Origin: a virus
Length of the DNA: 28,840 bases
Reading direction: 5' to 3' (one strand)
IMG/VR virus record: IMGVR_UViG_3300010354_000440
Span: 1-28,840 of that record
Positions within the stretch are counted from its first letter, which is position 1, and each line of letters starts with the position of its first letter. The notes below the pieces were generated by a model. The model ran no database searches and was not told the origin of the DNA. It saw only the letters and a list, made by a program, of their open reading frames with translations. Positions 37 through 26,087 of the stretch are shown here, piece by piece. Both the position numbers and the translations under genes were made by a program.

Positions 37-1212
37 ATGTCAAAACTTTTAAATGAAAGATGGTCAGAGACCAAAGACGCTCTGCTTGAAGGCCTATCTG
101 GTAACCGTCGTCAATCTATGGCAGTATGCTTGGAAAACACACGTCGTTACTTGGCAGAGGCTGCAACCGCAGGAGCAACAAGCACTGGTAATATTGCTAC
201 ACTAAATCGTGTAATTCTACCAGTTATTCGTCGTGTTATGCCAACTGTTATTGCTAACGAAATCGTTGGTGTGCAGCCAATGACCGGTCCAGTTGGTCAA
301 ATTCATACTCTACGTGTTCGTTACGCTGACAGCGGTGACGGCGTTGTAGCAGGTGAAGAAGCACTAAGCCCATTCAAGATTGCTGCTGCTTACTCTGGTA
401 ATAACGTAGATGCTAATCCTAAGGCTGCTGTAACAAGTTCCTTAGAAGGTGCACCAGGTAAGCGTATGAGCATTCAAATCTTGAAGACACCAGTTGAAGC
501 AAAGAGCCGCAAGCTATCTGCTCGCTGGACATTCGAGGCTGCTCAAGATGCACAAGCCCAACAAGGCATTGACATCGAAGCAGAAATTATGGCTGCTCTA
601 GCACAAGAAATTACAGCTGAAATTGACCAAGAGATTCTAACATCTCTACGTTCTTTAGCTAGTGTTGAAGAAACATATGACCAGTCATTAGTTTCTGGAA
701 CTGCAACATTCGTTGGTGACGAACACGCTGCTCTAGCAATTCAAATTAACCGTGTTAGTAATTTAATTGCTCAGCGCACACGTCGTGGTGCTGCTAACTG
801 GGCAGTTGTTTCTAACCAGGCTCTAACAATTCTACAAAGCGCAACAACTTCTGCTTTTGCTCGCACAACAGAAGGCACATTTGAGGCTCCAACAAACACC
901 AAGTTCGTTGGAACACTAAACGGTGCAATGCGTGTTTATGTAGATTCTTATCTAAGCGACACACTAGACAATCAACAGGTTCTAGTAGGTTATAAGGGAA
1001 CAAGCGAAGCTGATGCTGCTGCTTTCTATTGCCCATATATTCCTCTAATGAGCTCTGGTGTTGTTCTAGATCCAGCAACATTCGAGCCAGTAGTTGGCTT
1101 CTTAACACGTTACGGCTATGTTGAGCTAACAAATACAGCTAGCTCACTAGGTAACGCTGCTGACTACCTAGGTAAGGTTGCTATCACATCTGCAAACGTA
1201 AGCTTCAAGTAA
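37..1212 (+). CDS. 23: Major capsid protein, T4 gp23-like
   Basis: This protein forms the hexameric capsomers of the phage head. The stretch at residues 55-97, with VIRRVMPTVIANEIVGVQPM followed by TGPVGQ, is the hallmark of the gp23 family. At 391 residues it is shorter than T4 gp23 (521). The N-terminal segment carries YLAE|A at residues 38-42, matching the T4 prohead-protease consensus (L/I)-x-E and the LTE|A site of T4 gp23. A mature protein starting at Ala42 is therefore inferred. The start is set by an excellent ribosome-binding site, AAGGAG at 21-26. All but the first of about 21 arginines use CGT or CGC, whereas neighbouring genes prefer AGA, consistent with very high expression. A strong terminator follows. 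Identity is near certain; the cleavage site is inference. Confidence 0.96.
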   Translation: MSKLLNERWSETKDALLEGLSGNRRQSMAVCLENTRRYLAEAATAGATSTGNIATLNRVILPVIRRVMPTVIANEIVGVQPMTGPVGQIHTLRVRYADSGDGVVAGEEALSPFKIAAAYSGNNVDANPKAAVTSSLEGAPGKRMSIQILKTPVEAKSRKLSARWTFEAAQDAQAQQGIDIEAEIMAALAQEITAEIDQEILTSLRSLASVEETYDQSLVSGTATFVGDEHAALAIQINRVSNLIAQRTRRGAANWAVVSNQALTILQSATTSAFARTTEGTFEAPTNTKFVGTLNGAMRVYVDSYLSDTLDNQQVLVGYKGTSEADAAAFYCPYIPLMSSGVVLDPATFEPVVGFLTRYGYVELTNTASSLGNAADYLGKVAITSANVSFK

Positions 1213-2660: not shown

Positions 2661-5600
2661 ATGGCCGTTACAAATATTTCAAAATTTCCAGGTAATTACA
2701 AAATCCTAGTAAACAATGGTGACCTTACTATAGAGGCTGATAATTCTATCAACACCATTGACGGTGATATTACAACTGAAGCTGGTGGTAATTTAACAAA
2801 TACAATTTCTGGTGATATTAGTTTTGACGGCGGCAATTTAACAAACACAATTTCTGGCGACATTGTAAATGAAGGCGCTAATTTAACAAACACAATTTCT
2901 GGCGACATTATAAATGACACCGGTAATCTAACTAATACTGTATCTGGTGATATAGAAAACACTGTTGGTGGCAATTTAACCAATACCATATCTGGTGATA
3001 TTACCAATGATGGGGCAAATTTAACGAATACAATTTCCGGTGATATAACAAATGATGCTGGAAATGTTATCAATACTGTTGCTGGTGACATTACAACAGA
3101 TACAGGCGGCAATGTAGAAAATACAATTGGCGGATATCTAATCAACGATGTTACTGCACAAATTCAAAATCAAGCAGGTGGAGAAATTACTAATCAGGCA
3201 GGAGCCTATATTAGTAACGACGCAGGCGGGTATATTGAAAACATTGCAGGCAGTTATATTCAAAATGATGCCGGCGGCTACATAGAAAATATTTCCGGCG
3301 ATTATATAGACAATCAAGCCTCAACCTATTTTAATGTAGATGCAGGCTCGTATGCTAATTTTAACGTTGGTTCATTTTTAAATTTTACTGTTGGAACTGA
3401 TGTAACGTTTACGGCAACAAATGATTTCTTTGTCGATGCACTCAATATTCAAATTGGAACAGATAGAACTCAAACAATTGATACACAAGGTTCATTTGTA
3501 AACGATCTAATTCCATTAACGTCATCTACTTTTAATTTAGGAACTGATACTAATACATGGAAAACTCTATACGTTGATAAGATTCAAAGTTACGATACAA
3601 CTAACGTAGGTAATCCGTTATTTAGAGCTTACGATCCTTTAGATGTTTATGGTGCCGAGCCAGGTAATCTTGTTCAGATAGCTATTGCTAATGCTCAAAG
3701 AGAACAAAGTAACAATTTCTTTAGGGGCGGTGTTGGTATTCAAAAGGATCTTAACGTAGGTGGTTTTATCTATGGTAGAATTGAAACAGCGAATACCAGT
3801 TTCAGTGTTAGTGTTACAGCTACTAATGTAGATCAAACATTTTTCCCAACTTTTGCGCTATCAACCGGTAACGCATTTTTATTCATAGACAACGTTGGTT
3901 TAAAAAATGGATTGAGCTACAATCCTAGCAGAGGCCTGCTAACTGTTGATAGGGCAGGTGTATTTTCAACTGATAATTCTGTAAGCACAACTACTGGGGC
4001 ATTTACAGTCACAGGTGGTGTAGGTATTGGCAGAGATGTCTATATTGGTGGTAATGTTATACCGGGCAATGCTACATCATCAACTATTGGAACAATAGAT
4101 CAAACTTGGACTGAAGCGTTTTTAGATAAAATTTATTCTCAGATTTTAACTAATACAAGTTCTAACATTGTTATTGATCCAGGTGCAGGTTTAACTGACA
4201 TCATTGGTAACATTAGAGTTAGAGGTAACAATCCTATTGGAACACATCCTGTAGTTACTAACACTTTGTATGTAACAGTTGACGGAGATGATACCAATGA
4301 CGGTAGGGCAATGGACCCAAGTCGTGCTTGCCGCACAATTGGCGGCGCAATGAAATCTCCATATTATCAACCTGGAACACAGATTCTTGTATCAGCAGGA
4401 CGCTATTTAGAAGATAATCCTTTAAGGATGCTACCATACACTAGTGTTAGAGGTTCTGACATTAGAACTACATTCATTGAACCAATAAACAAAACGCAAG
4501 ACCTGTTTCATATGGACAGTGGTTGCTATCTAAATTATATGACGTTCTTAAATGGTCGTAGTGGACTATTAGAAGGTCAGTATGTTCCTGAATTGAATAG
4601 AGGTGCTTATACCACTGCATTTCCTCCCTTAGAAGGTGATGAAAAAATTGATCTATTCCATTCGCCATATGTTCAAAACTGCACGAATCAAAGCGGACCG
4701 TGGCTAAAAGATGGCACAATGTTCCAGCCAAACAATACTGTGCAAGTTCCGGCAGCAGTAGGAACAGGAACTTGGAAAGCAAATACTACTACACTAATTG
4801 TTCAGGTAAGCACTGGAACTATTGAACAAGGAATGTTTGTAAATGCAGGTTATCAAAATCCGGGATTCTTTAATGCCAGGACATTACTACTAGCTAACAA
4901 ACCTTTTATTCAACAACAGACTGTGGCATTTGTTGATCAAGAATTTAACAGCGGTAACTTTACCTACGATGTTACAAAATGCCGTAGAGACACAGAATTA
5001 ATTATTGACAGCATTGCAACTGATATGTTGCAAGACAGTGAAAGCGAGAGTATATTTGCTGGCCTACAGTATTGGAGACAAAGCGGATATGTAGACGCAA
5101 TTGGTGGACAGATTACAACAACTTCTGCTGCTATTTCTTATCTAAGAGATATCACTACAAATACTATTGCTACAACAACTGAAAGAGATGTTGTTAATGC
5201 AAGATTTAACAATATTTTAACAATTTTAAATACTTCAACTGCTACTCTTGTTAACGGTGATTTTGCACAATGGGTAACTGATAGTATTCAACCTAATACT
5301 ACTGCATCTACAACTGCGTCGATTGTTAATGCCTATAATTCAATTTTAACATGGAAAAATTCTTTAACAAATCAAACGATTAGTTATATCAACAGCACAT
5401 TAGCTCCGTTTGTCTATGATTCTACTAAGTGTAGTAGAGATGTTGGACTAATTGTTGATAGTATTGCCTTAGATCTATTGTTTGACGGTCAAAGCCAAAC
5501 TAAATTTGCAGGATTACAGTATTGGAATCAAAGTTCTAATATTTTAGCGTTGTCAGGTGAACTAACTACAACAACTAATGCTCTCAATTACCTTAAATCT

Positions 5601-8600
5601 CTAGTGCAGAAAATTATTGTTTCAGACACTTCTGCTCCAAGGTATCAATCAACGCTTAGTCAGTTTACAAGTGTAAACATTGGAACAGCAAGTGAACAGG
5701 CAAAATTAAACACAGAATACAATTTAATAATTAATATCTTAAACAGCGGAACTGTAGGTGTTTCAGATATTATAGTTCCAAATGGTATTGCAGCAAGCAG
5801 CAATACTAATGTTATTAATTCTTATAATTTATTACTAGCAAATAGAAACTATCTTATTAAAGAAACAATTGCCTATGTTGAAACAACCAAAGCACCGGGA
5901 TTCGTTTATGATGTTTCTAAGTGCGAAAGAGACACGGCCTATATCTTAGATAGTGTTGCATTTGATCTTTTATACGGTGGCAATAGACAAGCTGTAATGA
6001 GTGGTGTCTACTACTTTAATTTTAATGCTGGTTCTACAGCTATTCCTAATGAGATACCACAAACTACTGCTGCATATGAATATATGAAAGAGTTGTTTAG
6101 TAGCGTTATAAGAGGCATTCCAATTGACACTGCTACACTCTATCAAACAACAGTAACTCAAGTCACAGCTTTCCCTGCAGGAACTTATGTAGAATCTGAT
6201 CAAGCTGATAAACTAATGGATATTATTCTAAGTATTATCAATAATGGTCCTACAGGAGTAATTCCAGAACCAATTAGTTTAGATCGCTCAACTGATCCTG
6301 CTGTTATAATGGCTTCAAGTTTGTTGAATAGCAACAGAAACTTCTTAAGAGCGGAAGTTGTAGCCTATGTTAACACTCTTAAAGCATTCTTATATGACGA
6401 AACTCTTTGCAGAAGAGACATAGGCTTTATATTAGATAGCGTAGCATATGACCTTAGACATGGCGGTAACAAACAAAGTATTAAGAGTGGTGTCTATTAC
6501 TTTGGCTATACAACAACATCGTCTGAAGTTCCTAATGAACTTCCGCAGACTGTAAGTGCATATAGATATATCAAATCATTAGTAAGTGATATTGTAAGAG
6601 CTAAACCAATTCTCACCAAATATCAAACTACCATCACACAGGTAACTAATATTAATTCAGCATCAATTTACGAAGCTGAACTGTTACAAGATAAAATTGA
6701 TATTATTACAAATATCATTAGAAATGGACCAGAAGATTACCAAGCACCTGGTAGAAGAATTCCTATTAATTTAACAAGGAACACTTCTACTAATATTACT
6801 AATGCCTATAATCTATTAATGGCTAATAAGTCATTTATTAGAGAAGAAACAATTGCCTACATTAATTCTACAAGCAACAGCTTCTCATATAACAGAGAAA
6901 AATGCTTTAGAGATGTTGGAATTATTATTGAAAATGTTAGTTACGATGCAACATTTGGAGGAAATGAAAAATCAGTTCAAGCAGGTCTAGCATATTACGA
7001 CGGAGTGGTTAGCTTAATTGCTGGACAAGAAACACAGACTATTGCTGCAATTGATTATATCAATTCACTAGCACAAAAAATCATTACAAATACATCTTGC
7101 ACAAATATTTTAGGATCAAGTGCAACTTTTGCACAAGTTATTAATACTGCATTAGTTGGAGGATCAATAGCTAGTGAAAGCATCAACGATCTTATTAATA
7201 TTATTACTACTATTATAGATAATGGACCAGATGCTGCTCCTGCAATCTACAATAGTCCTGGTCCAGATGCTGCATTTATTTCAGCTGAAACTTTAATACA
7301 GGCAAATCGCAAATTTATCCAAGAAGATACTATCAATTGGATTAATAGTAAAGTTCAGGCATTTCCATATAGTGAAATAGAATGTAGAAGAGATACAAGT
7401 TTAGTAATTGATGCTGTAGTTCAAGACTTATTATACCCAACTACAGGACGTAGTCAATCTACATTTGCCGGATTACAATATTGGAATCAAGGCGCTTATG
7501 TTGGTCAAATTCAAGTTCAATTAAATCCGACTATAGAGGCTATAAAGTATCTGAGAGATTTATCTGTAAAAATTGTGTTAAATGTAACTCCAGCAGATGA
7601 CTTAATTCCTCGCTATCAATCTGTTATTGCACAAAATACTACTACATTCCAAAGTGCTACAGCAGCAGAAGTAGAAGTTATAACAGACAGATTTAATGAT
7701 ATCATAGAAATAGTCGGCGGTGTAAAAACAGGTTGGACTGATAGAATTATTCCTAACGGTGCTCCTAGCAGAATTCAAAGCATCTATAATGCAATAGATA
7801 ATTTGATGTTGAATAAGACGTATTTGGCAGCTGAAGTTAATGCATATGTAACTGCTACTAATTTTGGCTTTATTTACGATGCTGCAAAGTGCGCAAGGGA
7901 TGTTGGTTTCATGATTGATGCAGTTTCATTTGATTTGAAACATGGCGGAAACAGACAGTCTGTTCAAAACGGTTTGTATTATTACGGGTTTAGCACAACT
8001 GCCTCAAACATCACAAATGAAACAACTCAAACTGTAGCTGCATTTAATACACTGTCATTTATTATCAGTAGAGTTGTCCAAAATATTCCTGTAGTCCCAA
8101 GACAGACAAGTGTGTTACAGGTGTTCTCTGCGACAACAGCCACATCATGGGAAGCAGTTTCTTTAGCACTAAATGTTTCAACAATTACCAGCATTATATC
8201 AAACGGACCAAGCGTTGCAGCAAGTCCTAGTGCTATTGCAATGACAGCTTCAACCACTGCTACTGTAATAAATGCTGTTAACTTGGTAAATCTTAACAGA
8301 CAGTTTATTGTTGAAGAAGTTATTGCATTTATTGATCAAACATTTAATCCAAATAGTTTTAACTATGATGAAGCAAAGTGCTACAGAGATGTTGGACTAA
8401 TTTTAGACGCAGTAAGCCAAGACATCATTCTTGGTGGTAACAGTAAGAGTATTGAAGCTGGTGTAGCCTATTGGGGTTCTGGGTATAATTACGTAGCAGG
8501 CCAAGAATCAACTACAACATTGGCAATAAACTATGCAAGAGATTTATGCTTACAGGTTATTGCAAACAAAGCTGTTACACCTCATTATAAAACTGATACT

Positions 8601-10739
8601 CCTCAAGTAATTAATACCTTCTTCCAATATGGTGGAGATTACATGCCTCAGCAGGCTGTAAAGAGAAACTTTAAAATTATTACAGACATTATTACTAATG
8701 GGGTAGAAATTGCTCCTCCCTATTTCTCAGGAAGTGAATTAACTGCTTTAACTGGCCTAAATGGTTCAGATGTTAGACCAGCTGCTGAAGTTGTGTCTGT
8801 AGATCAAATTGGAACTAGCACATTTAGAATTGGAATTAATCAAGCAACAATAGGATTTGGTAATAATGCTACATTGTTCTTTGGCGAAACAGGACCAAGA
8901 CCATTGACAGACTCTGATGTTGAGGCAGCAAGTTTACTTTATACCGGAACTGCAACAACTTGGAATGCTAGAAAATTAGATCCTATTGGAGCTATGGGAG
9001 GAACGCTTGTTGACGGTGGAGTTATCAGCGAACGCAGCCCAATTCAGTCGTTTGTGTTTGACGCTTTCACTCAGTTGAACCAAGGTGGTATAGGAATGCG
9101 TATTACTAGAAACGGTTATGCGCAGCTTGTATCTGTGTTTACAATCTTCTGTTCAGTCGGTGTGCAAGTTGATAACGGCGGTATTGCTTCTATTACAAAC
9201 TCTAACTGTAACTTTGGTGATGTATCATTGTTAGCTAAGGGTTATGGTAGAAGGGATTTTAGTGGAACAGTTTTCAACCCAACATTTAGAGCTTACCCAT
9301 TTAGTCCGACTGGTGTTCTAGGTAGTAACGAACTTGACCAATATTACCCAAATGGATTCTTCCCAAATATTGGTAGAGTAAATATCTATACACCAGACTT
9401 ATTGAATAGGCCGCATATTTCCTTAGTAATGGAAGTTGAACCTCCAGATGGTCATCTAAATGAACAAAACTTCCCAGGGTTCTTAAATGCGTTCCCAAAT
9501 ACTTCTACATTAACAACATCTACTATTAACCTGGTCAATATTGACACCACTGATATTGCTATTGGTAATGAATTATTCATTAGAGATCAATTTGGTAGAC
9601 AATTTGACGATAACGGAGTATGGTATGCTGCAACAGGAACCATTGTTACAGATCTAGGATATAACAGCATTGTTCTTAACAAGGCATTAACCAGCGGCGG
9701 GGGTGATCCAACTAATCCTAATTTCTTTACTTTGTATTTCTGTGGAAATGCCTATTACACAGTGTTATCTAGTAATGTAGCTGACAGTCCATATTACCCA
9801 AATCAAAATATATTAGATCCTGTGCCATTAGGTGTAGAACCATTATTATATCAAAACCCAACAACTTCTCAAGTTGTTTATCATGCTAAAGCAATTGAAT
9901 ACCTACAAAGTTTAAGTAATTTTGTAATTACAAATACGTTGTTTACATTAACAAATACAACTACAAACCAAGTTATTCAACCTTTAGTATCGGGCGGCGG
10001 ACAAGCACAGGCATTTATTGATCTAAGATTTAATATTATTAGAAATATTCTTACTGCTACAAATATTACAGCAGCGCAACAGGTTGTTCCATCTGGTGCA
10101 ATTAGTAAGATTGGAACTGTTGTTCCTGGAGCAGGAAGTGCTGTAACTTTATTAGAAGCTAATTACGACTTCCTAGCAGATGAAGTAAGTGCGTTTGTGT
10201 TTAATGATCCTTTCTTTACACCTCTAGTGTCTGGATTTAGTCCTGAAGAGGCTGCGTTCGTAACTCAAAAGTGTAAGAGAGATATCAAGATAATTATAAG
10301 ACAAATAATATACGATTTACAAGGAGGAGGAACATACTACAGTGTATATGCCGGCTTAAGCTATTGGGCTCGACCAGGTTCACACCATATTGTAGAATTA
10401 GGTGAAGCTGTAACTAGAACTGATTTATTCCCAGACGGGTCAATTGTAAACTTCTATCAAAGAAGCTATATCAGTGCTAGCGGATACTTATTTGAATACG
10501 TTGGAGCAGGAACAAACTATGGTGCTCTACCTCAGGTAGGTCGTGCTGATCCAAATCAAAGTAAAGAAGTTGTTCAGTTAGACGGAGGTAAAGTGTTCTT
10601 TACTTCTACTGATCAAAACGGTGACTTTAGAATTGGTAAGGGGCTTGTTATTAGCCAGGCAACTGGTGTTCTAAGCGGTAGAACATTTGTTCAATCTCTA
10701 TATGCTAATATGACACCATTTATATTAGCAATACAATAA
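2661..10739 (+). CDS. Giant tail-fibre / adhesin-like virion protein (2692 aa)
   Basis: The layout, N to C, is as follows. Residues 31-240 are 15-16-residue repeats of the form N-L-T-N-T-I-S-G-D-I. Residues 280-310 hold the LGTDTNTWKTLYVD motif. Near 450 is TGGVGIGRDVYIGG, shared with the fibres downstream. Residues 535-685 begin a pectate-lyase-like beta-helix (DDTNDG, then AGRYLEDNPLRMLPYTSVRG). Residues about 740-2090 hold eight copies of a module of about 160 residues with the signature CxRD-x7-D-x3-D-x~16-GLxYW. Residues 2110-2215 resume the helix (GGIGMRITRNGYAQLVSVFT). A ninth CxRD module lies at 2538. The C terminus, TDQNGDFRIG to ANMTPFILAI, is the usual end of fibre-like proteins in marine T4-like phages. 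No chaperone domain or catalytic site is evident. SD AGGA precedes the ATG. It is probably a long tail fibre or whisker-like adhesin. Confidence 0.88.
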   Translation: MAVTNISKFPGNYKILVNNGDLTIEADNSINTIDGDITTEAGGNLTNTISGDISFDGGNLTNTISGDIVNEGANLTNTISGDIINDTGNLTNTVSGDIENTVGGNLTNTISGDITNDGANLTNTISGDITNDAGNVINTVAGDITTDTGGNVENTIGGYLINDVTAQIQNQAGGEITNQAGAYISNDAGGYIENIAGSYIQNDAGGYIENISGDYIDNQASTYFNVDAGSYANFNVGSFLNFTVGTDVTFTATNDFFVDALNIQIGTDRTQTIDTQGSFVNDLIPLTSSTFNLGTDTNTWKTLYVDKIQSYDTTNVGNPLFRAYDPLDVYGAEPGNLVQIAIANAQREQSNNFFRGGVGIQKDLNVGGFIYGRIETANTSFSVSVTATNVDQTFFPTFALSTGNAFLFIDNVGLKNGLSYNPSRGLLTVDRAGVFSTDNSVSTTTGAFTVTGGVGIGRDVYIGGNVIPGNATSSTIGTIDQTWTEAFLDKIYSQILTNTSSNIVIDPGAGLTDIIGNIRVRGNNPIGTHPVVTNTLYVTVDGDDTNDGRAMDPSRACRTIGGAMKSPYYQPGTQILVSAGRYLEDNPLRMLPYTSVRGSDIRTTFIEPINKTQDLFHMDSGCYLNYMTFLNGRSGLLEGQYVPELNRGAYTTAFPPLEGDEKIDLFHSPYVQNCTNQSGPWLKDGTMFQPNNTVQVPAAVGTGTWKANTTTLIVQVSTGTIEQGMFVNAGYQNPGFFNARTLLLANKPFIQQQTVAFVDQEFNSGNFTYDVTKCRRDTELIIDSIATDMLQDSESESIFAGLQYWRQSGYVDAIGGQITTTSAAISYLRDITTNTIATTTERDVVNARFNNILTILNTSTATLVNGDFAQWVTDSIQPNTTASTTASIVNAYNSILTWKNSLTNQTISYINSTLAPFVYDSTKCSRDVGLIVDSIALDLLFDGQSQTKFAGLQYWNQSSNILALSGELTTTTNALNYLKSLVQKIIVSDTSAPRYQSTLSQFTSVNIGTASEQAKLNTEYNLIINILNSGTVGVSDIIVPNGIAASSNTNVINSYNLLLANRNYLIKETIAYVETTKAPGFVYDVSKCERDTAYILDSVAFDLLYGGNRQAVMSGVYYFNFNAGSTAIPNEIPQTTAAYEYMKELFSSVIRGIPIDTATLYQTTVTQVTAFPAGTYVESDQADKLMDIILSIINNGPTGVIPEPISLDRSTDPAVIMASSLLNSNRNFLRAEVVAYVNTLKAFLYDETLCRRDIGFILDSVAYDLRHGGNKQSIKSGVYYFGYTTTSSEVPNELPQTVSAYRYIKSLVSDIVRAKPILTKYQTTITQVTNINSASIYEAELLQDKIDIITNIIRNGPEDYQAPGRRIPINLTRNTSTNITNAYNLLMANKSFIREETIAYINSTSNSFSYNREKCFRDVGIIIENVSYDATFGGNEKSVQAGLAYYDGVVSLIAGQETQTIAAIDYINSLAQKIITNTSCTNILGSSATFAQVINTALVGGSIASESINDLINIITTIIDNGPDAAPAIYNSPGPDAAFISAETLIQANRKFIQEDTINWINSKVQAFPYSEIECRRDTSLVIDAVVQDLLYPTTGRSQSTFAGLQYWNQGAYVGQIQVQLNPTIEAIKYLRDLSVKIVLNVTPADDLIPRYQSVIAQNTTTFQSATAAEVEVITDRFNDIIEIVGGVKTGWTDRIIPNGAPSRIQSIYNAIDNLMLNKTYLAAEVNAYVTATNFGFIYDAAKCARDVGFMIDAVSFDLKHGGNRQSVQNGLYYYGFSTTASNITNETTQTVAAFNTLSFIISRVVQNIPVVPRQTSVLQVFSATTATSWEAVSLALNVSTITSIISNGPSVAASPSAIAMTASTTATVINAVNLVNLNRQFIVEEVIAFIDQTFNPNSFNYDEAKCYRDVGLILDAVSQDIILGGNSKSIEAGVAYWGSGYNYVAGQESTTTLAINYARDLCLQVIANKAVTPHYKTDTPQVINTFFQYGGDYMPQQAVKRNFKIITDIITNGVEIAPPYFSGSELTALTGLNGSDVRPAAEVVSVDQIGTSTFRIGINQATIGFGNNATLFFGETGPRPLTDSDVEAASLLYTGTATTWNARKLDPIGAMGGTLVDGGVISERSPIQSFVFDAFTQLNQGGIGMRITRNGYAQLVSVFTIFCSVGVQVDNGGIASITNSNCNFGDVSLLAKGYGRRDFSGTVFNPTFRAYPFSPTGVLGSNELDQYYPNGFFPNIGRVNIYTPDLLNRPHISLVMEVEPPDGHLNEQNFPGFLNAFPNTSTLTTSTINLVNIDTTDIAIGNELFIRDQFGRQFDDNGVWYAATGTIVTDLGYNSIVLNKALTSGGGDPTNPNFFTLYFCGNAYYTVLSSNVADSPYYPNQNILDPVPLGVEPLLYQNPTTSQVVYHAKAIEYLQSLSNFVITNTLFTLTNTTTNQVIQPLVSGGGQAQAFIDLRFNIIRNILTATNITAAQQVVPSGAISKIGTVVPGAGSAVTLLEANYDFLADEVSAFVFNDPFFTPLVSGFSPEEAAFVTQKCKRDIKIIIRQIIYDLQGGGTYYSVYAGLSYWARPGSHHIVELGEAVTRTDLFPDGSIVNFYQRSYISASGYLFEYVGAGTNYGALPQVGRADPNQSKEVVQLDGGKVFFTSTDQNGDFRIGKGLVISQATGVLSGRTFVQSLYANMTPFILAIQ
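2754..3380 (+). repeat. In-frame tandem repeats, N-terminal fibre region
   Basis: This region encodes repeats with consensus N-L-T-N-T-I-S-G-D-I plus a variable 5-6-residue linker (starts at residues 44, 59, 74, 89, 105 and 120), then degenerating GGYIEN / GDYIDN variants. A perfect 30-nt copy occurs at 2835-2864 and 2880-2909, offset 45 nt, showing recent duplication. The regular period suggests a beta-solenoid or trimeric beta-prism shaft. Confidence 0.85.
4950..8560 (+). repeat. Eight tandem CxRD modules of ~160 residues in giant fibre
   Basis: The cysteine of each CxRD signature is at residues 774, 924, 1088, 1250, 1415, 1575, 1744 and 1907, giving spacings of 150-169. Each copy reads roughly Y-D-x3-C-x-R-D, then I-D-x-V-x2-D, G-G-N-x2-S and G-(L/V)-x-Y-(W/Y/F), followed by a diverged linker containing N-A-(Y/I)-N and Y-(I/V)-N. 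The copies are strongly diverged at DNA level, so the array is old. A ninth copy sits apart near 10260-10370 (Cys2538). Confidence 0.88.
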
Positions 10740-15383: not shown

Positions 15384-15809
15384 CAAAATTTCTAGTTTAG
15401 CTTTGATGATTTTGTTATTAAAGCTCTGACCTACTCTTTGATGTAATGGCCTCGGCCACGATTTATAAGAGCACCAAGCGTATGCAGAATGCTCAGAATT
15501 TAAAATTGGCACAAATTCGTCATCTACAATTAAAACATAAGTGTTATACTTAAATTTTTGATCTGGGCTAACAAACAATTCTAACGGAACAAACTTTTTA
15601 ATATTAGGAATTGTTCCTAGTTCTTCCTCTATTTCTCTGTTGAGAATGTCCAGGCTTGTGCTGTCAGAAGGTTCTTTTTTGCCTCCAACGAATCCCCAAG
15701 TGCCTGCTGTTTTACCGTTCGTTCTTAATAATAATAAAAACCTTTTAGTTTTAGAAGATAATATTAAACCACCACTACAAACAACATTTTTTAAAGAATT
15801 AGTCGCCAT
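15369..15809 (-). CDS. Nudix hydrolase (146 aa)
   Basis: Nudix enzymes cleave nucleoside diphosphates linked to another moiety, such as oxidised dNTPs, ADP-ribose, NADH or RNA caps. The box is visible at about residues 42-66: GGKKEPSDSTSLDILN then REIEEELGT. The catalytic REUxEExGU half is intact. The spacing from the leading glycines is not the textbook G-x5-E-x7-REU: the fit needs a slightly longer loop, and Ser falls where the first Glu normally sits. The WGFVGGK strand before the box and the C-terminal PLHQRVG region are typical. Its start overlaps the gp15 end by 19 nt, so it is translated with the neck/tail operon. T4 encodes NudE elsewhere; the substrate here is unknown. Confidence 0.9.
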   Translation of the reverse strand: MATNSLKNVVCSGGLILSSKTKRFLLLLRTNGKTAGTWGFVGGKKEPSDSTSLDILNREIEEELGTIPNIKKFVPLELFVSPDQKFKYNTYVLIVDDEFVPILNSEHSAYAWCSYKSWPRPLHQRVGQSFNNKIIKAKLEILLELL

Positions 15810-17191
15810 AACTGCCTGTCATAAATTCCATCATAACTTTTATTCCATTCACCTCCTTCGTATTGATATTGAACACCGGTAAATGAATTAGTAGTGTATA
15901 TTACACTATTAGATGCTGAGGCGTCAAATACTATATTCCAGTTTGACCCGTTCCATTCAATAATGTCATTCGCACTTGCTTGAAAATCAGACGTATCTAA
16001 ATTTTTCCATGCAGTAGGACCAACATATCCTACATCACCGAATTGATCGTTATCGTTAATACCTTCTAAGATTAAAAATCTTGTGCCTGCTGTGAGACTT
16101 GTAGGATTGTATGTCAATGGATTTACTATAGCATCAACTGTTCCTCTACTAGCAATTACAGTGTTTGTAGGTATAGTGTCGGGATCAATATTTAAAATCA
16201 TTTCTTTTTCATTACTAGGATTTAAACTTATTGTCGCTATAATTTCACTGCCTGAATCTTGTTGAAATCTTAGTTGACTTAGTCCTGCTCTAAATTTACC
16301 AGGATACAAATCTAAAAGTTTTAGCCATGATGTTGAATTTCGTGGGTCATCTAAATCAATATCAGTTCCTAATGCTGTAATATTAATAATTCTAGCTATG
16401 CCGTTCATTACCAGTAAACTAAAATTTCCAGATGTCACTACAATTTCTTCATCAGGGCTAACATTTTCAAATATTTCACTTGCTCCATCAATCCTATAGT
16501 TAGTTTGAATATAACCTTCTGTATTGCTTGCAAAAACATTACTAATAATTTTTGTTACAATACCTAGTTTTCTAACTTTAGCTGGTGGAGTAATCCATAC
16601 TGGCGCTGTAAAATTTAATGTCAATACATCTATGTCTTCATTAACACCTTGCGGAACTGTTCTGCTGGTCCAATTTTGTGTCTCTAGAGTTACTGTGCTT
16701 AAACTAGTCCAATCAATGTAATTATCTGTAGTTTGAATTTCAAAACTAGGATTAAAAAATACAACAATTTGTTCCCAAATTTGTAGTTTCTGATCCATGC
16801 TAGTGGTCCAAATATCTGCTGAAAGACTTAATGTCCACGGGCTTGGCATAATTCTTTCTACTGTGTAATTCTGCCCTTGATTATTAAGATAGCTATTTGT
16901 AGCCGTGTTAAACTCACGCTCTCTTATATGTATTTTAGAAATAAAGGTAGGATCTTGTAACCTAGCTCTATCAAACTGTAAATCCTTAATGTAACAGGCT
17001 ATAAAAGGAGCTGAAGGGACACTGTTCTCGCTGTTCTTTCTTAATATCTGTGCTACTTGCCTACTCATATCACCGTATCTTACTGGCACAGTGACTAAGT
17101 TACCTTTGGCATCCTTATATGAAAAATTACTAAAGATGTTTATAAATTGTGCCAAATATCTTCTTACTTGGCCGTCATAAAAATAATCCAT
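15791..17191 (-). CDS. 15: Tail sheath stabiliser, T4 gp15-like (466 aa)
   Basis: gp15 caps the proximal end of the tail tube and sheath and joins the tail to the neck. The N terminus YFYDGQVRRYLAQFINIFSN followed by VPVRYGD matches T4 gp15 (YFYNSSFRRYATLMGDLFSN ... VPITYAS). Further shared elements are the PSPWTLSLSADIWT strand and the APVWITPPAKV segment, matching the WMYPP region of T4. The protein is much longer than T4 gp15 (272). The extension after residue ~225 includes a Trp-rich C-terminal part (407-450: DIIEWNGSNWNIVFD, YQYEGGEWNKS). Its ATG shares one nucleotide with the gp14 stop codon. It lies on the opposite strand to gp13 and gp18, unlike T4. Confidence 0.88.
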   Translation of the reverse strand: MDYFYDGQVRRYLAQFINIFSNFSYKDAKGNLVTVPVRYGDMSRQVAQILRKNSENSVPSAPFIACYIKDLQFDRARLQDPTFISKIHIREREFNTATNSYLNNQGQNYTVERIMPSPWTLSLSADIWTTSMDQKLQIWEQIVVFFNPSFEIQTTDNYIDWTSLSTVTLETQNWTSRTVPQGVNEDIDVLTLNFTAPVWITPPAKVRKLGIVTKIISNVFASNTEGYIQTNYRIDGASEIFENVSPDEEIVVTSGNFSLLVMNGIARIINITALGTDIDLDDPRNSTSWLKLLDLYPGKFRAGLSQLRFQQDSGSEIIATISLNPSNEKEMILNIDPDTIPTNTVIASRGTVDAIVNPLTYNPTSLTAGTRFLILEGINDNDQFGDVGYVGPTAWKNLDTSDFQASANDIIEWNGSNWNIVFDASASNSVIYTTNSFTGVQYQYEGGEWNKSYDGIYDRQLWRLIL

Positions 17192-20284: not shown

Positions 20285-23257
20285 ATGGCAACATTGACTT
20301 CACCAGGTGTATCAGTTACAGTAATAGATGAAAGTTTTTATACACCTGCTGCTTCGGGCACAACACCTCTAATTTTTGTTGTTTCTGCGCAGGATAAAGA
20401 TAATCCAAGCGGAAGCACAGCGGCTGGAACATTGGCAGCAAATGCTGGCAAAGTTTACCTAATTACCAGTCAGAGAGATCTAACTGATACATTTGGAACT
20501 CCATTATTCTACACAGATGCCAGTGGAAATCCTCAACACGGCAATGAATTAAATGAATATGGACTTCAAGCTGCATACAGCAGCCTAGGAGTAAGTTCCA
20601 GAGCTTACGTAGCTAGAGCAGACATTGATCTAAATGAACTTCTTCCGTTAGAAACTATACCTAAAGGAGAACCAGTAAACGGCACCTATTGGGTAGACAC
20701 TGCTAATTCTAAATTTGGTATTAAAGAATGGAGTTCTATTAGTCAAAGATTCACAGACGTAACTCCATTAATATTAGATGACAACACAGGAACTACATTA
20801 CTCGTGGCCGGAACCCCAGCTCCAAGTTTTGGAAAAGCCGGTGATTATGCTATGGTTATTACTAATTCTAATGCCAATGTTTTATGGTATAAGAATGCTA
20901 GCCAAAGTTGGATTCCTGTTGTAAACAATTTTGAAATCACTAAAAAATTACAACTAAGTCCTCATTTTAATTATCCAGTTTATAACGCTAGCACAGCATC
21001 CGGTAGTGTGTGGGTAAACACTACTGTTCCAAATAATGGTGCAGATTGGTCTATCAAGTATTACGACTCGACTAAAAAAGAATGGACTGATGTCGATGCG
21101 CCATTGTATGCTTCTAGACAAAGTGCAACTTATAACCTAGATCCAATTGGCGGCGGTATTAATATCGCAGCAGGTTCTTTATACATAGATTGGAACACTG
21201 TTGATTCTGCCAGTCCAGAAGCAGCGAACTTTGAAATTCGTAGAAGAACTCGCAAGGGCACTACAGTTATGACTGCTAGCCCCGTGTCTACCTTTGCAAC
21301 AAGCGGAACTACTTATTCATTCACAATTGCAGAAACTGTAGCAGGATCAGAAAATTTTAACCCTGCATACACAGTTTCGATGACAGCAACAAATTCAACA
21401 ACTTATCTAGGATCACTTGTTGTTGGTGCTGTTATTGCACAACCAAACTTAACAAATGTTGAAGCACTTTGGAATTCTGCAAACAACGTTCTAACAATTG
21501 CACATAGATTAGGCGGTGAAATTAGAATTACAAATCTTAGCACTTCAACAAGAAACTTGTTAGGTCTAACACCTTATGATATCATTAATCAAATTGGTAA
21601 CAACAACTTCTTTATTGCAGACACTTCAACATTTGTAATATCTAACTGGAAGCCTTTAGTTTACGAAGCAAGTAAATCTGCTCCGTATACAGATCCAGCG
21701 GACGGAACATTATGGTATAATAATGTTATCGATGAAGTAGATATTATGGTTAATTCAGGAACTCAGTGGGTCAGTTATAATGCGTTCTATCCATTAACAG
21801 ATCCCGAAGGTCCTATCATTCAAGCAACAGAACCTGTAGATGGTGATAGAAGTGATGGCGGAAGCCTTGCAACTAATGATATTTGGATTGATACTAGCGA
21901 CTTAGAAAATTATGGTAAAAACATCTATGTCTATGACGCTTCGGTTATCATAGGTAGTAAATGGGTTCTACAAGATACTACAGATAATTCAAGTCCAACA
22001 GGATGGGTATTTGCTGACGCACGTTGGGGTATAACTGGCGATGCTATAGAAGCGGCTACTATTAAAGAGTTAAGAACAAATAACTATGTAGATCCAGATG
22101 CTCCTAACCCTGCTTTGTATCCAAGAGGTATTAAGTTGTGGAATACAAGACGATCTGGTTTTAATGTTAAGAAATATGTTAGAGGATATATTGATACTGC
22201 AAATGTAAACACAAGATTCTTTAATGAATCTACTAGTGCTTACAATCCAGATCGTTGGGTAAGTCAATTCCCATTAGCAGATGATGGATCTGGTGTATTT
22301 GGAAGGAAATCACAGCGTCAAGTTGTAGTAAAAGCACTAAAGGCGCTTGTAGACAATAACCTAGCCATTAGAGATACAGATGCTTTAAACTTTAACCTAA
22401 TTGCTACTCCTGGTTATCCTGAGCTAATTCAAAACATGGTAACTTTGAATAACGATAGAGGTATTACAGCGTTTGTAATTGGTGATACACCATTTAGATT
22501 ATTGCCAACTGGTTCAAGTTTATCCAACTATGGCTTAAATTCTTCAGTTGCAACAGATAATGGAGAAAACGGAGCTGTTACATATAATGAGTATATGGCT
22601 ATGTATTATCCTAGTGGACTAACTACAGATAACAGCGGAAACAAAATTGTTGTTCCACCAAGCCATATGATGCTGAGAACATACATCAACAGTGATGCTA
22701 AGAGTTATCAATGGTTTGCTCCGGCTGGAACAAGAAGAGGTAATATTGACAATGCTACCAGCATTGGTTACATTGACAGCGAAGGAGAATTTAGATCACA
22801 AGCTATTTCTCAATCACTACGAGATGTAATGCTAGATCCAAACACTAAGGTTGCAATTAATCCAATTAGTAACCTAACAGGTGTAGGTTTGGTAGCTTAT
22901 GGTCAAAGAACAAGAGCTGCAAATGCTAGTGCATTAGACAGAGTCAATGTTGCAAGATTAGTTGCCTATCTAAGACGTCAACTAGATGTGTTAGCAAGAC
23001 CATTCTTGTTTGAACCAAACGATGCACAAACAAGAAGAGAAATTAAGGCAGCAGCAGAAAGCCTAATGCTAGAGCTTGTAGGTCAACGTGCTCTATATGA
23101 CTTTATTGTAGTGTGCGATGAAACAAATAACACACCTGCTAGAATTGATCGCAATGAACTTTATGTTGATATTGCAGTTGAACCAGTTAAAGCAGTTGAG
23201 TTCATCTACATTCCATTAAGAATTAAAAACAGAGGCGACATAGCAGCAGGACTATAA
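20285..23257 (+). CDS. 18: Tail sheath protein, T4 gp18-like (990 aa)
   Basis: This is the contractile sheath subunit. The N terminus MATLTSPGVSVTVIDES and the conserved C-terminal part support it: from about 615 (RGIKLWNTRRS), through LLPTGSSLSNYGLNSS, to LRRQLDVLARPFLFEPNDAQ, AESLMLELVGQRALYDFIVV and the final AVEPVKAVEFIYIPLRIKNR. At 990 residues it is about 330 longer than T4 gp18 (659). The extra length lies mainly between residues 120 and 590. It contains six Trp-rich units (near 133, 186, 240, 297, 474 and 531) of the form G-x-x-W-(V/I/Y)-(D/N)-T ... Y-x(~6)-W, probably surface-exposed insertions. A strong SD and late box precede it. It is followed 22 nt later by gp19 without a terminator. 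Confidence 0.94.
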   Translation: MATLTSPGVSVTVIDESFYTPAASGTTPLIFVVSAQDKDNPSGSTAAGTLAANAGKVYLITSQRDLTDTFGTPLFYTDASGNPQHGNELNEYGLQAAYSSLGVSSRAYVARADIDLNELLPLETIPKGEPVNGTYWVDTANSKFGIKEWSSISQRFTDVTPLILDDNTGTTLLVAGTPAPSFGKAGDYAMVITNSNANVLWYKNASQSWIPVVNNFEITKKLQLSPHFNYPVYNASTASGSVWVNTTVPNNGADWSIKYYDSTKKEWTDVDAPLYASRQSATYNLDPIGGGINIAAGSLYIDWNTVDSASPEAANFEIRRRTRKGTTVMTASPVSTFATSGTTYSFTIAETVAGSENFNPAYTVSMTATNSTTYLGSLVVGAVIAQPNLTNVEALWNSANNVLTIAHRLGGEIRITNLSTSTRNLLGLTPYDIINQIGNNNFFIADTSTFVISNWKPLVYEASKSAPYTDPADGTLWYNNVIDEVDIMVNSGTQWVSYNAFYPLTDPEGPIIQATEPVDGDRSDGGSLATNDIWIDTSDLENYGKNIYVYDASVIIGSKWVLQDTTDNSSPTGWVFADARWGITGDAIEAATIKELRTNNYVDPDAPNPALYPRGIKLWNTRRSGFNVKKYVRGYIDTANVNTRFFNESTSAYNPDRWVSQFPLADDGSGVFGRKSQRQVVVKALKALVDNNLAIRDTDALNFNLIATPGYPELIQNMVTLNNDRGITAFVIGDTPFRLLPTGSSLSNYGLNSSVATDNGENGAVTYNEYMAMYYPSGLTTDNSGNKIVVPPSHMMLRTYINSDAKSYQWFAPAGTRRGNIDNATSIGYIDSEGEFRSQAISQSLRDVMLDPNTKVAINPISNLTGVGLVAYGQRTRAANASALDRVNVARLVAYLRRQLDVLARPFLFEPNDAQTRREIKAAAESLMLELVGQRALYDFIVVCDETNNTPARIDRNELYVDIAVEPVKAVEFIYIPLRIKNRGDIAAGL
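20681..22006 (+). repeat. Trp-rich repeated units inserted in gp18
   Basis: Six degenerate in-frame units start at residues 133 (GTYWVDTANS), 186 (GDYAMVITNS), 240 (GSVWVNTTVP), 297 (GSLYIDWNTV), 474 (GTLWYNNVID) and 531 (NDIWIDTSDL). Most end in an aromatic-x-W hairpin 15-30 residues later. They are protein-level repeats; I saw no long DNA identity. Confidence 0.7.
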
Positions 23258-25275: not shown

Positions 25276-25644
25276 ATGAGAGCAAATTTTACTAATCTTC
25301 CTACAGACCCAAATAAAAATCAAACTATTAAAGAGTTTGAAGGATATCAAAATATTAGACCAAGCACTGATCCAAATGTTTACTCTGCAATGGTTGGATT
25401 TTTTTCTAGTAAGGGATTTGAAACTGTAGCAGCAGAATTAATTACAGAAACCATAATGACTCAAGCTAAAAGTGACGGCTATAGTGCAATGCAGATTTTA
25501 GATAGCATGAGATCTTTAAATGAAATTGAATTATCTGCTATTGTTGCTGAAATTTTAAATTTCAATAGATACAAGAGTAGTAGTTTAGGTTTTTATCCTC
25601 AATCTAATTCTAATCCTGAAATACTAAGAAATATAATAGCATGA
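25276..25644 (+). CDS. Hypothetical structural-operon protein (122 aa)
   Basis: No family is recognised. It has a polar N terminus, then a helical stretch (ELITETIMTQAKSDGYSAMQ, ILDSM, LNEIELSAIVAEIL) and a short C-terminal tail rich in Ser and Asn. There is no membrane segment. The SD AAGG (25267-25270) lies inside the end of the previous gene. Its stop overlaps the gp4 start by 4 nt (ATGA), so it is coupled to head completion on one side and the tube-like protein on the other. It may be a virion or assembly protein. Confidence 0.68.
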   Translation: MRANFTNLPTDPNKNQTIKEFEGYQNIRPSTDPNVYSAMVGFFSSKGFETVAAELITETIMTQAKSDGYSAMQILDSMRSLNEIELSAIVAEILNFNRYKSSSLGFYPQSNSNPEILRNIIA

Positions 25645-26087
25645 CTTTAAAGTTTAGTCAGGGCATTTATAAAATTAAAAACCCAGAAAAGTATATTGGA
25701 AGAAGTGCTCCACGATATAGAAGTAGTTGGGAACTAACATTTATGATGTTCTGCGACAACAATCCTTCTATTCAACAGTGGGCAAGCGAAAGTGTAAAAA
25801 TACCATACCGCGATCCGTTGACTGGAAAGCAAACGGTTTATGTTCCAGATTTTCTAATTACATACATTGATAAAAATATGAGACAACATGCTGAGTTAAT
25901 TGAAATAAAACCGGCAAATCAAACTTTGAAAGAACGTGTAGGCAAAAATGTCTATAACCAAGCTCAATATGTTAAAAACATGGCAAAGTGGAGTGCAGCT
26001 AATGAATGGGCACAAAATCATGGATTACGTTTCAGAGTTATAAACGAAGAGGACATTTATCATAAACCTAGCAAGAAAAAAAGATAA
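25641..26087 (+). CDS. 4: Head completion nuclease, T4 gp4-like (148 aa)
   Basis: gp4 acts late in head maturation, before tails can join; the family has a PD-(D/E)xK nuclease fold. The match to T4 gp4 (150 aa) runs almost end to end: KNPEKYIG (14-20), YRSSWELTFMMFCDNNPSIQ (26-45), QWASE, IPYRDPLTGK, YVPDFLITY (67-75), IEIKPANQTL (87-96), and MAKWSAANEWAQNHGLRFRV. The likely active-site residues are Asp70, Glu88 and Lys90, all present, with Glu31 nearby. It is coupled by ATGA overlap to the gene before it and lies 10 nt before gp16. In T4, gene 4 is not beside 16 and 17. Confidence 0.93.
   Translation: MTLKFSQGIYKIKNPEKYIGRSAPRYRSSWELTFMMFCDNNPSIQQWASESVKIPYRDPLTGKQTVYVPDFLITYIDKNMRQHAELIEIKPANQTLKERVGKNVYNQAQYVKNMAKWSAANEWAQNHGLRFRVINEEDIYHKPSKKKR

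Follow-up and report, generated by a model that had tools for sequence, protein, structure and literature searches.

What does a phage use nine copies of one module for in a single giant tail protein? The question is raised by an open reading frame (ORF) in the 28,840-base fragment that makes up virus record IMGVR_UViG_3300010354_000440, which we analyzed over its whole length and call the window here. A first-pass annotation of its letters had singled out nine stretches with the signature Cys-x-Arg-Asp (CxRD), eight of them in tandem. We asked whether these stretches are equivalent, which protein family they belong to, and what the conserved Cys may hold.

Nine equivalent modules in a giant tail protein

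The ORF encodes the giant tail protein of an aquatic jumbo-type, T4-like phage. It is assigned to PHROG tail fiber, short tail fiber, and virion structural families, its relatives were labeled structural or tail by their depositors, and it lies in a T4-like tail-protein setting, among gp23, gp15, sheath, and terminase genes (Table 1). Only its first ∼135 residues resemble a T4 gp5-type baseplate-spike beta-helix, with weak E-values (matches to 6p20, 3a1m, and other gp5 chains in the PDB; best E = 3.4e-4). At 68 to 71% identity, the major capsid protein of the window resembles those of Rak2/CBB-type jumbo phages, which infect heterotrophs, rather than cyanophage capsid proteins. Amid the tail and packaging genes, an ORF at 25641-26087 carries a TnsA-like endonuclease N-terminal domain (PF08722; E = 9.4e-22).

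The motif occurs exactly nine times in the protein, at the residues first annotated, with spacings of 150, 164, 162, 165, 160, 169, 163, and then 631 residues; shuffled versions of the protein contain it 0.03 times on average. An alignment of the nine stretches spans ∼128 columns, in which F, C, R, D, D, G, and Y never vary, and one hidden Markov model (HMM) finds all nine copies (the tandem eight at 123 to 148 bits and the ninth at 64 bits). The modules are thus equivalent, each with a single conserved Cys beside Arg-Asp, as had been claimed, and in a structure prediction that includes the adjacent modules 7 and 8, their six helices are identical in kind and order. The ninth copy, previously described as detached, is likewise an equivalent module, although its peculiarity lies elsewhere: it is circularly permuted, since its helices run G-H-A-B-E-F in the model and its profile matches are reversed, with the second half of the profile matching first (26 bits) and the first half later (52.6 bits).

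Table 1 Features of the window, with CpeT genes of two relatives (positions are in the window unless a contig is named)
Feature	Position	Strand	Basis
Gp23/major capsid protein	37-1212		Pfam scan of window
Giant tail protein ORF, 2692 aa	2661-10739	+	PHROG tail/structural families
N-terminal repeats like T4 gp5/phage baseplate-spike beta-helix (residues 10-135)	2688-3065	+	phmmer
Array-carrying beta-helix, first half (residues 536-655)	4266-4625	+	Spacing in relatives
Module 1, CRRD at residue 774, Cys codon 4980	4842-5290	+	Motif, alignment, HMM
Module 2, CSRD at residue 924, Cys codon 5430	5292-5753	+	Motif, alignment, HMM
Module 3, CERD at residue 1088, Cys codon 5922	5784-6245	+	Motif, alignment, HMM
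Module 4, CRRD at residue 1250, Cys codon 6408	6270-6731	+	Weak Pfam Phycobilisome match, E = 0.12
Module 5, CFRD at residue 1415, Cys codon 6903	6765-7226	+	Pfam Phycobilisome, E = 0.02
Module 6, CRRD at residue 1575, Cys codon 7383	7245-7706	+	Motif, alignment, HMM
Module 7, CARD at residue 1744, Cys codon 7890	7752-8213	+	Six helices in model
Module 8, CYRD at residue 1907, Cys codon 8379	8241-8702	+	Pfam, AlphaFold, VIA-align
Array-carrying beta-helix, second half (residues 2111-2210)	8991-9290	+	Spacing in relatives
Module 9, circularly permuted, CKRD at residue 2538	9870-10379	+	Reversed profile matches, model
Module 9 helices	G-H, residues 2404-2476; then A-B-E-F, residues 2491-2573		
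gp15-like ORF	15791-17191		
Sheath C-terminal domain	20285-23257		Pfam scan of window
Terminase	27950 onward		
CpeT genes, contig G019	14624-15124 and 53278-53697		
CpeT gene, contig G018	8675-9094		

Sequence matches to phycobiliproteins

Judged by sequence profiles and predicted structure, the nine modules are phycobiliprotein-fold domains, i.e., bilin-binding globins of the kind that cyanobacteria use for light-harvesting pigments. In a Pfam scan of the whole ORF, the sole family found was Phycobilisome (PF00502), at 44.4 bits against a curated cutoff of 22.2. Single window modules score 12.6 to 17.8 bits, below this cutoff (best E = 0.0033, module 8), and we therefore gathered related modules and scanned them one by one. 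Phycobilisome was matched by 34 of these 111 modules (best E = 4.3e-6), and any other family was matched by 2 at most; unlike phycobiliproteins, most single phage modules score under the cutoff.

Searches of PDB sequences gave the same family. All 46 matches of the nine-copy profile were phycobiliproteins, and the best match of a 111-row module profile was phycocyanin alpha (1f99; E = 1.8e-4). In these alignments, the phage Cys-x-Arg-Asp falls on Cys84-x-Arg86-Asp87 of phycocyanin alpha, which is its bilin attachment motif. When the module profile was compared by hhalign with a profile of 18 CpcA sequences, the two matched with a probability of 92.7% (E = 4.3e-7) and with K-C-x-R-D-(I/V)-G in register; control comparisons with reversed and column-shuffled CpcA profiles found nothing. 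Searched against whole cyanobacterial genomes, the phage profile had the cpcA locus as its top match in seven of eight.

Predicted structure of the modules

The AlphaFold model of module 8, built with 111 alignment rows, has six helices in globin order (pLDDT, 89.2; pTM, 0.87). It aligns with the phycobiliprotein 7s96_B over 140 residues (VIA-align Z, 16.7; rmsd, 2.5 Å), and all 50 matches listed by Foldseek and VIA-align were phycobiliproteins except 8u0f, which is titled "Bacterial fluorescent protein." A second model, which covers the last 997 residues beginning with module 7 (pLDDT, 77.9), contains modules 7 and 8, beta-rich parts, and the ninth copy; here, modules 7 and 8 match phycobiliproteins over parts only, with Z up to 9.4. 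The nearest phycobiliprotein is CpcA by sequence and phycoerythrin or phycocyanin beta by fold. Tested for membership of PF00502, the phage protein exceeds the profile cutoff, has the A-B-E-F-G-H globin core, and carries the counterparts of Cys84, Arg86, and Asp87. The modules share with the family the six-helix core, the K-C-x-R-D-(V/I)-G site in register, and a GG turn ending helix E; they differ in standing in tandem in a tail protein, in their site being a putative bilin site, and in having no X-Y hairpin. This N-terminal helical hairpin of antenna subunits is used in alpha-beta assembly. As no helix precedes helix A in either model, we do not class the modules as antenna-type phycobiliprotein subunits.

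An unrelated six-helix bundle could have come to carry a CxRD motif by chance or convergence. Sequence identity to phycobiliproteins is just ∼14 to 21% in the VIA-align matches, and helical bundles inflate structural scores. Such a resemblance is nevertheless very improbable, given that four independent searches list almost purely phycobiliproteins, that the Z of 16.7 exceeds the level of ∼14 that the tool quotes for helical models, that the functional residues are in sequence register, and that the shuffled and reversed controls fail.

Conservation of the putative bilin site

We examined 165 modules that are nonredundant at 80% identity. The Cys is present in 97%, the Arg in 93%, the adjacent Asp in 99%, the later Asp in 97%, and the Tyr in 96%, and a Lys precedes the Cys in 70%; the loci were found with patterns that partly contain the motif, which may inflate these values somewhat. 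Mean column identity in the module alignment is 21%. Among cyanophage modules, 43 of 55 have a strict CxRD; many cyanophage proteins have a CxDD position, and a few sites are lost, some of them without the Cys.

The Cys had been proposed to bind metal or to pack against a neighbor. A ligand site is indeed likely, but Cys-x-Arg-Asp corresponds to the bilin attachment motif and is not evidently a metal site. Neither a conserved His nor a second Cys was found in the 165 modules, and a metal or disulfide site was rejected because no further ligand set is conserved. More broadly, the same site might hold heme, a metal, or a nonbilin tetrapyrrole from the host, as the globin-like pocket and the conserved Cys and two Asp would allow. 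The missing His and second Cys and the exact register with the bilin site make any such ligand very unlikely.

Cellular relatives of phycobiliproteins offer a parallel. The modules share the CXRD motif with the bilin biosynthesis-associated globins BBAG-1 and BBAG-3, which we compared by their description (PMC10151467); these are stand-alone proteins of cells whose genes are associated with those for heme oxygenase and bilin reductase, whereas the phage modules are tandem domains of a tail protein. BBAG-1/3 globins with this motif need no lyase to bind bilin (PMC10151467), and by analogy the phage modules could perhaps do the same.

A variable array in one beta-helix loop

The modules had been pictured as part of a fiber shaft, with copy number as a likely control of length or valency. 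The shaft was not borne out, as the modules are globular six-helix domains inserted into one beta-helix loop. Across 129 nonidentical relatives, the gap between the flanking beta-helix halves grows by 159 residues per module (r = 0.90), and in relatives with no modules, the halves are 23 to 145 residues apart. The array is therefore a side insertion in a single loop, and we rejected the notion of a ruler for shaft length. Copy number does vary among relatives rather than being fixed, with 0, 1, 2, 4, 5, 6, 7, 8, 9, 10, or 11 modules seen in the main array; what it sets is the size of a side appendage.

Even copy numbers were found in 102 of the 118 ORFs with a nonzero count. When ORFs were merged at 65% identity, even counts outnumbered odd counts by 18 to 8, and we rejected a strict rule of evenness; the counts give only a hint that modules may come in pairs. 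No alternating alpha- and beta-like subtypes were seen when modules were compared.

Modules at different positions of the window protein are 19 to 51% identical, whereas those at equivalent positions of different phages mostly share 50 to 83% identity (69 to 83% between the window and relative L013). The four tandem modules of relative L003 correspond to window modules 5 to 8, and the six of relative L020 correspond to module 1, module 4, and modules 5 to 8. By these sequence comparisons, individual modules are old and position specific. Recent tandem slippage as the simple cause of the repeats is ruled out, because positions are orthologous across phages and divergent inside one protein.

Modules in other phages

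A search with module 8 found modules in 313 of 50,697 phage records, of which 312 are named Synechococcus, Prochlorococcus, or "Cyanophage" and one "Marine." The same modules occur in giant tail or structural proteins of cyanomyoviruses (S-PM2 T4-GC 830 and 734, S-WAM2, the S-RSM4 "short tail fibre," and S-CAM1), which are annotated only as tail, structural, or hypothetical. The cyanomyovirus proteins checked have two to seven modules each at >25 bits, and the fold is matched in predicted viral structures. S-PM2 has modules in two giant tail-region proteins and also a CpeT gene. Neither modules nor a bilin reductase was found in Phosso or Vibrio 2.275, two jumbo phages that infect heterotrophs and whose capsid proteins are nearest. 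The photosynthesis gene psbA is present in 2 of 28 large environmental relatives of the window. Relatives with psbA (G019 and G018) also have CpeT genes, G019 apparently two (Table 1).

The fold family is known; its tandem use in a phage tail protein appears to be new. In the open-access literature, outside which most subscription journals lie, we found no paper linking phycobiliprotein domains to phage tail proteins.

Bilin genes in module-bearing phages

A heme oxygenase gene adjoins an Fe-bilin reductase gene in four module-bearing relatives (323 to 383 kb), and two further module-bearing relatives have a bilin reductase. The reductase is thereby present in 6 of 11 module-bearing contigs of at least 200 kb, which were chosen independently of this gene. 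In one relative (locus L232, positions 852-2061, on the 327-kb contig G020), the heme oxygenase and bilin reductase genes overlap, follow ClpS-like and Hsp20-like ORFs (named by eye from their translations), and are distant from the module gene. Scanning from the reductase side, we found modules in all five reductase-bearing contigs of at least 100 kb; however, seven of eight capsid relatives of at least 100 kb have modules regardless of the reductase. A bilin reductase and modules occur together in P-SSM4, P-SSM7, P-RSM4, S-SSM6b, and MED4-213, whereas the genomes of P-SSM2 and Pelagibacter phage Mosig encode the reductase but yielded no module. Because of the 7/8 baseline and these two phages, we rejected the reductase as a predictor of modules and regard the relation as co-occurrence only; P-SSM2 and Mosig also mean that modules do not explain all phage bilin genes. 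In Mosig, the bilin reductase and heme oxygenase genes (L405, 39650-40886) lie ∼6 kb from a tail fiber gene.

In 12 of 13 cyanophage genomes from ten genera, the gene of the giant module protein is closely preceded by a gene of the CpeT bilin-lyase family, located 0.3 to 2.0 kb upstream on the same strand. The adjacency holds in all seven genomes inspected from the module side and in five of six inspected from the CpeT side, with P-HM1 as the exception. The identity of CpeT was verified with PF06206 in S-CAM1 and S-RSM4 and elsewhere follows annotation or tblastn. This adjacency may reflect one inherited gene order. CpeT was detected in 66 records versus 313 for modules, so that most module carriers have no detected CpeT. 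A CpeS-type lyase was found in none of 36 viral records. Known T-type lyases act on the Cys153 site rather than on Cys84 (PMC10452541). In P-SSM7 (L524, 13407-17127), cpeT, pcyA, and gp5 stand in a row; this is a Prochlorococcus phage, from a host group without standard phycobilisomes.

The strongest rival to bilin binding takes the homology as given. The modules could descend from bilin-binding globins and now serve only as adhesive or spacer domains, with Cys-Arg-Asp kept for folding or for packing against neighbors and with no pigment. Consistent with such a domesticated fold, modules occur in relatives with neither bilin genes nor psbA detected on their contigs, the X-Y hairpin is lost, P-SSM2 and Mosig have bilin genes and no modules, and some modules have CxDD or no Cys. 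Two observations argue against it: the set of bilin-contacting residues is kept (Cys, 97%; Arg, 93%; Asp, 99%) against a mean column identity of 21%, and in isolates the modules are confined to phages whose hosts make bilins or are equipped by the phage to do so. We regard pigment-free modules as a serious possibility, though not the probable one.

A probable bilin-carrying tail appendage

Our preferred reading, which we consider probable, is that the modules of this giant T4-like tail protein bind bilin through Cys-x-Arg-Asp and give the virion a pigmented appendage. Computation establishes homology, fold, site conservation, insertion into a beta-helix, and variable copy number; from sequence and models, we infer bilin binding itself. 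Eight phycobiliprotein-fold domains are threaded into one beta-helix loop, with a permuted ninth near the C terminus, and each domain retains the Cys-x-Arg-Asp that serves phycobiliproteins and BBAG-1/3 globins as the attachment site for a linear tetrapyrrole. As phage particles assemble in the infected cell, the modules would bind biliverdin, phycocyanobilin, or phycoerythrobilin through the Cys. The bilin could come from the cyanobacterial host or be made by phage heme oxygenase and bilin reductase, and its attachment might be spontaneous or, in cyanophages, aided by the CpeT-like protein that the upstream gene encodes. Phage particles may then themselves be pigmented, and candidate roles of the pigment are light-gated adsorption, photoprotection, or merely that of a structural cofactor.

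The customary answer for phage bilin genes is that they maintain the host antenna. For Prochlorococcus phages, whose hosts have no standard phycobilisomes, the purpose of these genes is unclear (PMC2984593), and for phages of heterotrophs, bilin-making genes are "still enigmatic" (PMC11480375). A candidate bilin acceptor in a tail protein, beside a CpeT gene in ten cyanophage genera, offers an alternative and testable answer. More tentatively, and with less confidence than in the preferred reading, we suggest that the virions of many aquatic T4-like phages could be biliproteins and that phage heme oxygenase, bilin reductase, and CpeT may at least partly serve to make bilins and attach them to the tail modules. 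If so, free virions could use a pigmented appendage, e.g., in light-dependent adsorption, which has been reported for several cyanomyoviruses (PMC2984593). The finding provides an annotation for one of the largest proteins in aquatic T4-like phages and would extend bilin-binding globins beyond cells.
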